From: Allomuricauda sp. TY007
Lineage (GTDB): Bacteria; Bacteroidota; Bacteroidia; Flavobacteriales; Flavobacteriaceae
Assembly: GCF_010468565.1 (NCBI RefSeq)
Contig: NZ_WUEG01000002.1
Span: 189,933 to 253,932, forward strand
Direction of reading: 5' to 3'
DNA length: 64,000 nt
Shown: piece by piece, positions 37,272-45,346 of the stretch
Numbering within the stretch: position 1 is the stretch's first letter
Layout of the letters: each line of letters opens with the position of its first letter
The notes under the pieces: generated by a model
Told to the model about the DNA's origin: nothing
Databases searched by the model: none
Seen by the model: the letters and a program-made list of their open reading frames with translations, nothing else
Translations under genes and position numbers: made by a program

Positions 37272-37598
37272 CTAATGTGAGACTACTTTCAAACCAACAA
37301 TTGAAGCAATTAATGTGGTAATAAAAAATAGTCTCCAAAATGTTGCGGGCTCTTTAAAAACAAAGATACCAAACAGTACGGTCCCCACGGCACCGATTCC
37401 GGTCCATACAGCATATGCGGTACCTATTGGCAATTCCTGTGTGGATTTTACCAGCAAAATCATACTGATCGCTAGGCAGACCACAAACCCTATATACCAA
37501 TACATCATTTCCGTGCCCGTTGTTTCTTTCACCTTTCCTAAACATGCTGCAAAGGCAACTTCAAAAAAGCCTGCAATTATTAATAATATCCAGTTCAT
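37272..37598 (-). CDS. SMR-family efflux protein (Sug/EmrE-like)
   Basis: 108 aa, four transmembrane helices. The conserved acidic residue of helix 1 is present (Glu13 in IIAGFFEVAFAACLG), as are the GTAYAVWTGIGAVGTVLFG (helix 3) and C-terminal helix motifs. SMR proteins exchange cationic drugs or guanidinium-like compounds for protons. It sits inside the histidine operon between the DinB gene and hisF, with short gaps of 17 and 19 nt, so it is probably co-transcribed with them. Any link to histidine is unproven. Confidence 0.9.
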   Translation of the reverse strand: MNWILLIIAGFFEVAFAACLGKVKETTGTEMMYWYIGFVVCLAISMILLVKSTQELPIGTAYAVWTGIGAVGTVLFGIFVFKEPATFWRLFFITTLIASIVGLKVVSH

Positions 37599-37615
37599 AG
37601 GCTGTATTTACAACG

Positions 37616-38140
37616 CTAGCTTTCGTTCTTGGCATTCAGGTTGACACCTCCATAAAAGCCCAAATCCCGGTTCTGTAAAATTTTGGTCCAAAGTGCTATT
37701 TGACCTGTGTGATAAGATAAATGCTCCGTTACATGAATAATGTTGCCCACACCAGAAAAATTAAAGCCCTGTACGTTTCTTTTACGTAAAAGTTCGTTGA
37801 GCGGAGCATCATAGAACGCCCTTTTGGCATCGGATATGGTGTCTTCCAATTTTTTAATGAGCTCTTCTTTGGTATAGCCAGATTCAGTTGAAAATTCCTC
37901 ATCCCGTTTGCGCTCGTCTTCCAAATTTTGAATAGATGCAATTCCGTATTGCGTAATGTTTCCGCAGAGATGAAGTATGAGGTTCCCAATACTATTGCTA
38001 GACTCGTTGGGTTTTTGCCAGATTTCATCTTCCGACAATTGCTCTAAGCAGATTTTGATCATCCGCAGGCTTTCGTTCATTCGATACCCTGCGTTCCATA
38101 CCAATTCTTCTTGGAGTTCTCTTTCTTTATCCATTTTCAA
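37616..38140 (-). CDS. DinB-like protein (DUF1572)
   Basis: 174 aa four-helix bundle of the DinB/DUF1572 group. The likely metal ligands are three His in [12 protein letters not shown] (about residue 55), [14 protein letters not shown] (about 136-146). The class includes putative metal-dependent thiol transferases, but the role is mostly unknown. The start lies inside the end of hisA (14-nt overlap), so it is translationally coupled to hisA. Confidence 0.88.
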
Positions 38141-38858: not shown

Positions 38859-38861
38859 TCT

Positions 38862-39279
38862 TTAATCGTATTTTACTCTGTCTATGGACATCCACATTTC
38901 CGAATCCCCTATTCTTTTAAAGCCTAAACTTTCATAAAAACTATGGGCATCCAATGTTTTAAGCGCTACGGTGTTGACCTTTTTTACTTCTGGCCGGTCC
39001 AAAATATGTTGAATCAACTTTTTTCCAAGCCCTTTTCCTTATATTTGGGTCGAATACGACCACATCCATGATGTAAGCAAAAACTAAACCGTCGGTCATT
39101 ATTCTGGTATAGGCAATCTGCTCACCGTTCTTATCGAACATGCCAAAACAGATGCTTTTCTCAATGGTCATCAATGTTTCTTCCCAAGTTCTCCCCTTTC
39201 CCCAATAAGTTGAAGAAACCTCTTCATGAATCTTTTGTTTATTCAGTTGGTCTTTGTCCGTTGATATATAGAAATCCAT
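38862..39279 (-). pseudogene. Frameshifted GNAT N-acetyltransferase inside the his operon
   Basis: The first frame (stop at 38959) encodes a GNAT start: MDFYISTDKDQLNKQKIHEE, YWGKGRTWEETL, FAYIMDVVVFDP. The expected acetyl-CoA loop GKGLGKKLIQ and the rest (HILDRPEVKKVNTVALKT, FYESLGFKRIG) continue in another frame to a stop at 38862-38864. The break is near 39029-39052 and needs a net loss of two bases. One parsimonious reading is two single-base contractions, AAAA to AAA and GGG to GG, which would restore DPKYKEKGLGKKLIQ. Either a true pseudogene or homopolymer sequencing errors. It sits between hisH (1 nt) and hisA (3 nt). Confidence 0.85.
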
Positions 39280-43473: not shown

Positions 43474-44331
43474 CTACAATACCATTTTTTCGATTGGACA
43501 CACCAAAATTCCCTCTGCCCCGGCTGCTTTCAGCTCATCGATAACTTCCCAAAAGGTCTCACGGTTGATTACGGTGTGCACCGAGCTCCACCCCTCTTCG
43601 GCCAATGGCAAAACAGTAGGGCTTCGCATTCCCGGAAGTATAGAGATAATCTTATCCAATTTATCGTTTGGAGCGTTCATCAAAACATATTTGTTCTGGC
43701 GAGCCTGCAACACAGACTTGATCCTGAACTGGATTTTCTTCAATAATTCCTTGCGCTCTTCAGAAATAGTGGGCGATACAGCCAATACGGCCTCACTTTT
43801 GAGCATCACTTCCACTTCTTTCAAATTGTTTTTGAAGAGCGTACTGCCACTAGAGACAATATCACAAATCCCATAAGCCAATCCAATATTCGGAGCGATT
43901 TCCACTGAACCGTTGATGATATGTAAATCGGCGGTCACACCTTTGGAAGCTAAATAATCCTTGACTGTATTTGGGTAGGAAGTGGCTATTTTTTGCCCTT
44001 CAAAATCCTTTATGGAGTTATAGTTTACATTTTTGGGTACAGCAAGGGAAACACGGCATTTGGAAAAATTTAAACGTTCTGCAATGGAAATATCTTTGCC
44101 CTTTTCTATCAAAACGTTTTCTCCGATAATGGCTATGTCCACTACCCCATCCCGCAAATACTGTGGAATGTCTCCGTTACGTAGATAAAATACTTCCAAA
44201 GGAAAATTACGGGAAGTTGCTTTTAATTGGTCCTTCCCATTATCAATGGAAATACCACAATCCTTTAAAATTCCAAGTGAATCCTCGTTTAATCGTCCAC
44301 TTTTTTGAACAGCAATTCTAATTTTTGTCAT
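43474..44331 (-). CDS. hisG: ATP phosphoribosyltransferase (long form)
   Basis: 285 aa, the long form with a C-terminal ACT-like regulatory domain (about residues 210-285), so no HisZ is needed. Substrate motifs include KIRIAVQKSGRLNEDSLGIL, LRDGVVDIAIIGENVLIE, ATSYPNTVKDYLASKGV and GLAYGICDIVSSGSTLFKNN (PRPP loop). It catalyses the first committed step and is expected to be feedback-inhibited by histidine. First structural gene of the operon, 101 nt after the leader peptide stop. Confidence 0.96.
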   Translation of the reverse strand: MTKIRIAVQKSGRLNEDSLGILKDCGISIDNGKDQLKATSRNFPLEVFYLRNGDIPQYLRDGVVDIAIIGENVLIEKGKDISIAERLNFSKCRVSLAVPKNVNYNSIKDFEGQKIATSYPNTVKDYLASKGVTADLHIINGSVEIAPNIGLAYGICDIVSSGSTLFKNNLKEVEVMLKSEAVLAVSPTISEERKELLKKIQFRIKSVLQARQNKYVLMNAPNDKLDKIISILPGMRSPTVLPLAEEGWSSVHTVINRETFWEVIDELKAAGAEGILVCPIEKMVL

Positions 44332-44367
44332 TTTTCAATCTTTTTGTCTGAAAAACCAAATGGGTAC

Positions 44368-44401
44368 AAAAAACAAACCCGTTTGATTTCTCAAACGGGT
44401 T
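44368..44401 (-). terminator. his attenuator: intrinsic terminator
   Basis: Perfect 11-bp arms, AACCCGTTTGA and TCAAACGGGTT, enclose a GAAA tetraloop (44387-44390) and are followed on the - strand by TGTTTTTTG. It lies between the leader peptide and hisG. Its 5' arm (bases 44397-44390) can instead pair with the leader segment CTCAAGCG at 44445-44438, giving an 8-bp antiterminator with one G-U pair. Confidence 0.9.
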
Positions 44402-44431
44402 AGAATATATTTTAAAAACAACAATACATTT

Positions 44432-44485
44432 CTATCTCGCTTGAGGGCAAGTATAAAAATGATGATGTGTGTTTTTGTTTCTCAT
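44432..44485 (-). CDS. hisL: his operon leader peptide
   Basis: 17 codons from the ATG at 44485 to TAG at 44432-44434: MRNKNTHHHFYTCPQAR. Three consecutive His codons (CAT) occupy 44459-44467. Stalling there for lack of charged tRNA-His should leave CTCAAGCG (44438-44445) free to pair with the 5' arm of the terminator, letting transcription reach hisG. A ribosome reaching the stop codon covers that segment and lets the terminator form. The layout is that of classical ribosome-mediated attenuation. It begins about 8 nt after a -7 box, so the message is nearly leaderless. Confidence 0.88.
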   Translation of the reverse strand: MRNKNTHHHFYTCPQAR

Positions 44486-44492
44486 GATGCTC

Positions 44493-44500
44493 CAAAAGTA
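44493..44500 (-). promoter_or_regulatory. his operon -7 box (TACTTTTG)
   Basis: A perfect TAnnTTTG on the - strand directly before the leader peptide. A TTG (candidate -33 element) lies at 44517-44519, 16 nt away, a little short of the usual spacing. The promoter sits in the 45-nt gap after the prohibitin stop codon. Confidence 0.6.
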
Positions 44501-44530
44501 GGATATATTTTTATATCAAAAAAGGGGAAT

Positions 44531-45346
44531 TTAGTTATTTCCCAAAATTAATGGCAATCCATCATCACCGGAACCTACCACCACTACTTTAGCATTTGGT
44601 GATTCTGCAAGTTTCAATGTTGCATCTATACCTTTGTCTTGCAATATCTTATCTGTTAAAGAAGCACTCAAAATGCGGTTGGCATCGGCCTTGCCCTGTG
44701 CTTCTATTCTAACTTTTTCCGCCTCTTTCTCAGCAGTTACCAATCTAAATTCATATTCTAAAGATTCCTGCTCCTGTCGAAGTTTACGTTCAATCGCATC
44801 TTTAATGGTCGGAGGTAAAGTCACATCTCTTACCAATACTTCGTTCAGCTGAATATATTGGTCGTCCACAATGATTTGTGTCTCCTCAAAAATCTCTTGT
44901 TGAATTGCATCACGTTTGCTGGAGTATAACTGTTCGGGGGTATAACGCCCAACAACGCTACGTGCTGCAGACCTAATTGCAGGAAGTAGAACACGCTCTA
45001 TATATTGTTCACTTTTTTCCTGATGAAGTTTGCCAAGGTCATTGTATTTGGGCTGAAACCATACGGAGGCCTCCAATTTAATGTCCAACCCGTTTGATGA
45101 GAGCACATTCATTTTTTCCAATCGTTCTTGTTGGCGTACTTCGTAAATGTATACCTTGTTCCAGGGCGCCACCAAATGAAAACCTTCTCCCAATGGCGGT
45201 TCGTCCGTTACTACACCGCCACCGAAGTATTTATACAATACGCCAGCTTCACCCGATCCAATTGTCACTGTTGACCTTGAGGCAAAAATGATGAGAAAAA
45301 TAATCGCTGCCAATGCTGGCAACGCAATCTTTGGTAATTTATCCAT
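44531..45346 (-). CDS. Prohibitin/SPFH-family membrane protein
   Basis: 271 aa. One N-terminal transmembrane helix (IALPALAAIIFLIIFA) is followed by the SPFH band domain (GSGEAGVLYKYFGGG, EGFHLVAPWNKVYIYEVRQQ, RSVVGRYTPEQLYSS). A coiled coil comes next (about residues 185-235, LRQEQESLEYEFRLVTAEKE), then a short C-terminal segment. Prohibitins form ring-like assemblies in the membrane and often regulate proteases such as FtsH; none is adjacent here. It is 12 nt downstream of the VWA protein gene on the same strand. Confidence 0.92.
   Translation of the reverse strand: MDKLPKIALPALAAIIFLIIFASRSTVTIGSGEAGVLYKYFGGGVVTDEPPLGEGFHLVAPWNKVYIYEVRQQERLEKMNVLSSNGLDIKLEASVWFQPKYNDLGKLHQEKSEQYIERVLLPAIRSAARSVVGRYTPEQLYSSKRDAIQQEIFEETQIIVDDQYIQLNEVLVRDVTLPPTIKDAIERKLRQEQESLEYEFRLVTAEKEAEKVRIEAQGKADANRILSASLTDKILQDKGIDATLKLAESPNAKVVVVGSGDDGLPLILGNN

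Follow-up and report, generated by a model that had tools for sequence, protein, structure and literature searches.

A probable ribosome-mediated attenuator with a covarying antiterminator before the his operon of Flavobacteriaceae

Does the short region before the his operon of this genome act as a ribosome-mediated transcription attenuator, and how far does such a switch extend in Bacteroidota? Control of his genes through a leader peptide is textbook knowledge in Proteobacteria, and an earlier note on the window (the whole 64-kb stretch of DNA analysed here) had read the region as a complete attenuator of that kind. We consider this very likely to be correct: a ribosome-mediated his transcription attenuator is the best reading of the region (44500-44367, minus strand), in which all elements are present in a workable order and spacing, conserved in relatives and accompanied by covariation specific to the antiterminator. 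The leader elements sit within the 199 nt that separate an SPFH-domain gene (44531-45346) from hisG (43474-44331, ATG at 44331; TIGR00070, 174.6 bits), the first gene of a complete operon, hisG-D-C-NB-H-A-F-IE, running from 44331 to 35898 on the minus strand. Downstream of hisG, between 43412 and 35898, lie hisD, hisC, hisNB, hisH, an acetyltransferase-like frame, hisA, two inserted ORFs, hisF and hisIE. HisG of this genome is 98% identical to that of A. profundi and M. lutisoli, the nearest relatives being Allomuricauda/Muricauda. The acetyltransferase-like gene between hisH and hisA (38859-39279, minus strand) is apparently frameshifted, with reading resumed in another frame; a pseudogene, an error in sequencing and a real feature are all conceivable. 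The two non-his ORFs between hisA and hisF (37272-38140, minus strand), named by eye from their sequence, are a DinB-like ORF, overlapping hisA at its end, and a small membrane transporter of the SMR type.

On the minus strand, the -7 promoter box TACTTTTG (44493-44500; consensus TAnnTTTG) is followed by a leader ORF of 17 sense codons, MRNKNTHHHFYTCPQAR (44432-44485, ATG at 44485, stop TAG at 44432), whose codons 7-9 are three consecutive, putatively regulatory His codons, CAT CAT CAT (44459-44467). Inside the end of this ORF lies the core of segment 2, CTCAAGCG (44438-44445), which forms the 5' strand of the antiterminator and also falls within a small CUUGC/GCGAG pause-type hairpin; the rest of the antiterminator (44391-44437) comprises the post-stop UAGAAAUGUAUU, AAUAUAUUCUA and the 5' arm of the terminator. 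The intrinsic terminator is an 11-bp hairpin, AACCCGTTTGA-GAAA-TCAAACGGGTT (44376-44401; arms 44401-44391 and 44386-44376, loop 44390-44387), with the T-rich tail TGTTTTTTG (44367-44375). The -7 box, leader ORF, His codons, CTCAAGCG and terminator all lie where the earlier note had placed them, and the 8-bp pairing, including one G-U, that it described between CTCAAGCG and 44397-44390 is confirmed; of the partner bases, seven belong to the terminator arm and the eighth, G44390, to the terminator loop. Its measurements needed some amendment. Segment 2 starts 14-22 nt after the His codons, the 29 nt that it gave as the far limit running to the segment's end; and the antiterminator it proposed is present but extends beyond 8 bp, because a further pairing joins post-stop UAGAA-AUGUAUU to AAUAUAUUCUA, immediately ahead of the terminator. 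The long antiterminator of the window, CUCAAGCG-(A)-GAUAGAAAUGUAUU with AAUAUAUUCUAACCCGUUUGAG, folds at -17.6 kcal/mol.

To judge such an arrangement against chance, we counted HHH-containing ORFs of 10-35 codons, of which the whole window holds two on both strands together. In the 330 nt before hisG, an HHH ORF occurs in 67 of 81 Flavobacteriaceae, compared with 1 of 4050 dinucleotide shuffles. Furthermore, folding of the leader RNA gives z = -6.2 relative to shuffled sequence.

Conservation was assessed by drawing 100 Flavobacteriaceae genomes and taking the upstream DNA of all 81 that have hisG; one (L022), whose contig ends too early, was left out, giving 80 assessable upstream regions. 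Every one of these 80 carries a short ORF with His codons upstream of hisG, with an HH or HxH pattern in 79; the degenerate leader of L078, read by eye, has two separated His (MKKTHYIHNYNIISNEM). Exactly eight codons follow the His run in 64 of 78 relatives, a fixed geometry that positions CTCARGCG. An automatic scan recovered the terminator in 77 cases, as CCCGTTTGA...TCAAACGGG or a close variant of it, and the remaining four are visible but imperfect, with a mismatch or only partly in view. The leader was likewise present in all of 80 further named relatives, from Allomuricauda, Maribacter, Zobellia, Arenibacter, Cellulophaga, Aquimarina and Kordia. Absence of leader and terminator from relatives, which the earlier note had named as counterevidence, is decisively contradicted by this conservation. 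One Flavobacteriaceae genome (L021, G003) has a quite different hisG leader peptide, HHTHHFFSDQHRVS, and terminator, AGTCCTTCCTGA, the switch having been rebuilt inside the family.

The earlier note had proposed aligning relatives' hisG leaders to look for co-variation. For the whole alignment RNAalifold returned the terminator alone, because terminator and antiterminator exclude each other; we therefore specified the antiterminator as a structure by name and tested it on the alignment. Across 76 aligned sequences, the 9-bp antiterminator helix (CTCARGCG with the terminator 5' arm) is paired in 92.6% of cells, compared with 19-46% in controls in which it was slid by 1-3 columns, and 33 antiterminator cells have changed on both sides, compared with 11.8 in shuffles. 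When leader tails were paired with the terminator 5' arm, the mean score of the best duplex was 17.9, and shuffled tails gave 11.8. Most informative is the outermost pair, because its 3' partner lies mostly in the terminator loop, outside the terminator's constraint: occurring as A-U, U-A and G-C, it is standard in 34 of 51 cases, compared with 22.6 expected (p = 1.5e-4, by a permutation test that, like the others of pairing, ignores shared ancestry). A mid-core mismatch is seen in a few relatives (L015, L040, L052, L058, L066, L068 and L071). The CUUGC/GCGAG hairpin is paired in 84% of cells (32-49% when slid; 22 double changes) and, on the folding model, would sequester segment 2 when the leader is not translated.

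Three relatives (L070, L072 and L073) read the segment in another frame, so that their peptides end in S(N/S)EL, not QAR, and still keep the pairing, with RNA CGAACG, CAAGCG and CAAACG; retention of the RNA while the peptide changes argues for selection on the RNA, not the peptide. The same observation bears on whether attenuation is combined with a trans action of the terminated leader RNA or of the conserved peptide tail, for which S. meliloti peTrpL/rnTrpL (PMC7298713) provides a precedent and the wide conservation of the peptide end QA(R/S/K) a possible sign. We regard this addition as improbable, given that the RNA segment CARGCG explains the conserved residues and that the frame shift alters the peptide while the RNA stays.

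The stretches from CTCARGCG to the terminator loop, taken alone, fold as one long hairpin whose inner stem comes from post-stop sequence. When the RNA was grown stepwise in silico, the antiterminator remained the lowest-energy fold up to completion of the terminator 3' arm, after which the terminator fold wins (-22.3 for the same stretch); in equilibrium folds, the terminator was preferred at every ribosome position folded. Since the terminator wins at equilibrium, the attenuation model needs kinetic trapping, like known attenuators. Within this model, RNA polymerase would start at about 44488 and a ribosome would enter the leader ORF at once, and we infer that histidine supply would decide the outcome. 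With ample His-tRNA, the ribosome would reach the stop and cover CTCAAGCG and the following sequence, allowing the 11-bp terminator to form and transcription to stop before hisG. With scarce His-tRNA, it would stall at codons 7-9 and leave CTCAAGCGAGAUAGAAAUGUAUU free to pair, at about -17.6 kcal/mol, with AAUAUAUUCUAACCCGUUUGAG as soon as the latter emerges, at a time when the terminator 3' arm has yet to be made, and polymerase would continue into hisGDCBHAF(IE). If no ribosome loads, the folded leader (-19 kcal/mol, segment 2 held) would favour termination.

Stalling might instead govern hisG translation or mRNA protection and leave termination aside, as translational attenuator variants described in general terms would allow (PMC9413887). 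This seems to us quite unlikely, in view of the strong U-tailed terminator conserved 15-93 nt before hisG and with no structure apparent that hides the hisG start. A different doubt concerns the upstream gene: the his leader is not separated from the SPFH-domain gene by any terminator (44500-44531, minus strand), so the hairpin must end upstream readthrough too, and an attenuator would also meet that readthrough, on a transcript that is not leaderless. That the hairpin merely terminates transcription of the SPFH-domain gene, with a fortuitous small ORF and constitutive partial readthrough into hisG, is very unlikely: a plain terminator needs neither the His ORF nor segment 2, yet both, with their spacing, are conserved in all relatives, and covariation outside the terminator stem would be left unexplained. 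Least credible of all is a T-box, a riboswitch or a DNA-binding repressor at the his promoter or terminator, of which the His T-boxes and HisR of Firmicutes his genes are examples (PMC9413887), given that no Rfam family, the T-box model included, reaches its cut-off anywhere in the window, that a T-box requires no His-codon ORF, and that no operator-like feature was noted, albeit outside any systematic search.

For the ribosome-mediated attenuator, promoter spacing adds a feature at the 5' end. The -7 box of Flavobacterium psychrophilum spans -12 to -5 relative to the start (PMC9723704), and by analogy transcription is predicted to begin at about 44488. The end of TAnnTTT(G/A) is 7-8 nt upstream of the leader AUG in 66 of the 80 named relatives, among them almost every Allomuricauda, Maribacter, Zobellia, Arenibacter and Cellulophaga; between box and AUG the bases vary and the gap length hardly does. 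Gaps of mostly 17-20 are found in Aquimarina and the Flavobacterium-like rest of the family. From these spacings, the predicted 5' UTR is about 3-4 nt in the first group and 13-16 nt in the second, and promoter prediction thus points to a near-leaderless transcript in the Allomuricauda-Maribacter clade. Shine-Dalgarno sequences are hardly used in Bacteroidota, and the sharply bimodal promoter-to-AUG distance makes leaderless initiation in this phylum directly testable with a natural reporter. Leader ORFs at or adjoining the transcript 5' end are likewise found in S. meliloti trpL (PMC7298713) and among mycobacterial polycysteine short ORFs, as cited in PMC13236596, in other phyla and for other amino acids; unlike in those leaderless leaders, the short 5' UTR is only predicted in the window. 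As leaderless leader peptides exist elsewhere, the short-5'-UTR leader is a variant, not a new principle. We are evenly divided on the fuller proposal that the element is one of a phylum-wide class of hisG attenuators not yet catalogued and carries an Allomuricauda-Maribacter-Zobellia near-leaderless leader (5' UTR of 3-4 nt) whose ribosome is loaded at the emerging 5' end.

The features that define ribosome-mediated his attenuators are found here: a His-run leader ORF upstream of his genes, an intrinsic terminator before the first gene and, according to the model, an alternative antiterminator that would be free at a His stall and covered at the stop. With E. coli/Salmonella hisL (RF00514, His_leader), the element shares the His-codon ORF, the pause-type, antiterminator and terminator hairpins, the position before hisG and the proposed logic; it differs in having three His codons in 17, compared with seven in 16 in E. 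coli hisL (PMC10989985), no shared sequence, a Bacteroidota promoter and a predicted 5' UTR of about 3 nt, and the window scores 25.8 bits against the RF00514 cut-off of 49. A 2021 transcriptome study of F. psychrophilum reported evidence of leader-peptide attenuation at amino-acid operons and a structured hisG 5' element, conserved across Flavobacteriaceae genera, with no Rfam hit (PMC9723704). Compared by description, that element and ours are both conserved, structured and without an Rfam hit, and the two are probably orthologous; the main text of that study contains neither a peptide nor an antiterminator for it, nor covariation or a survey of the phylum. The earlier note's remark that such leaders are less described in Bacteroidota is therefore fair, if not to be taken as meaning unknown. 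Firmicutes His-leader attenuators (PMC9413887; bacilli hisZ/hisS* leaders, PMC2965389) have the same His-run peptide, terminator and antiterminator but belong to another phylum, to scattered lineages and to different genes or sequences. Bacteroid-trp RNA (RF01692, PMC2864571), likewise a Bacteroidota cis-regulatory RNA, is by its name tied to the trp operon, not his, and has no match in the window. A treatment of his genes across the superphylum leaves leaders unmentioned and mentions attenuation for enterobacteria only (PMC8305728). The type of switch is thus known; what is new here is its geometry, the covariation, the extent across the phylum and, in one family, a C-rich variant that lacks the terminator. 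For Bacteroidetes/Chlorobi, too, some attenuators reportedly figure among the predictions of Vitreschak et al. (FEMS Microbiol Lett, 2004).

A covariance model built from the Flavobacteriaceae leaders gave strong matches in Flavobacteriaceae, the neighbouring family f2 and single genomes of f35 and f39. The many weaker matches across the phylum (E about 1e-3), on either strand and for the most part resembling terminators, were left out of the count, and a covariance search of the own genome for sister leaders at other amino-acid operons gave only weak terminator-like matches without leader peptides. Reading the hisG upstream regions of 80 genomes from about 30 families revealed His-rich leaders in f2, f3, f4, f5, f8, f11, f17, f24, f30, f35, f37, f39 (by eye), f43, f46 and f51. 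Leaders are doubtful in f10 and f22, and none was seen in the one to three genomes each of f14, f15, f16, f18, f19, f20, f26, f27, f29, f33, f36, f48 and f50. The presence of hisG without a His leader in f18 (genera g156 and g161), f14, f36, f29 and others may reflect loss or different control.

The same attenuator design recurs in other families with different sequences, the terminator being GGCTTACC in f4, f11 and f37, CCCGGC in f17 and f35, and CCGTCTGA in f2. In 32 of 32 leaders from ten families, pairing with the leader's own terminator beats the mean for other families' terminators (18.5 versus 12.8; Wilcoxon p = 5e-10), and no Rfam family reached its cut-off in 20 of the other-family loci. 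This distribution indicates that ribosome-mediated attenuation, for which Rfam has no model in this form, is how Flavobacteriaceae normally control histidine synthesis and that it is widespread across Bacteroidota, and the family-level sequence differences suffice for studying how such switches are rebuilt in evolution. Family f24 (L249-L258, L285-L314) has hisG leaders with 4-12 His codons, these reaching the very last codon in 15 of 28, and an intrinsic terminator is absent in nearly all. Leader stop and hisG are separated there by 56-127 nt of rut-like sequence, with a C/G ratio of 3.7 compared with 1.2 before the leader. This composition suggests that his attenuation in f24 depends on Rho; a ribosome stalling at the final His codons would then cover the Rho site. 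His-rich hisG leaders of yet other design, such as HHLSLHHHHH and HVLHHFHHSS, occur in f3 (L211-L215) and f8 (L228-L232, L284); a simple intrinsic terminator is missing in some of these and present in other f8 leaders.
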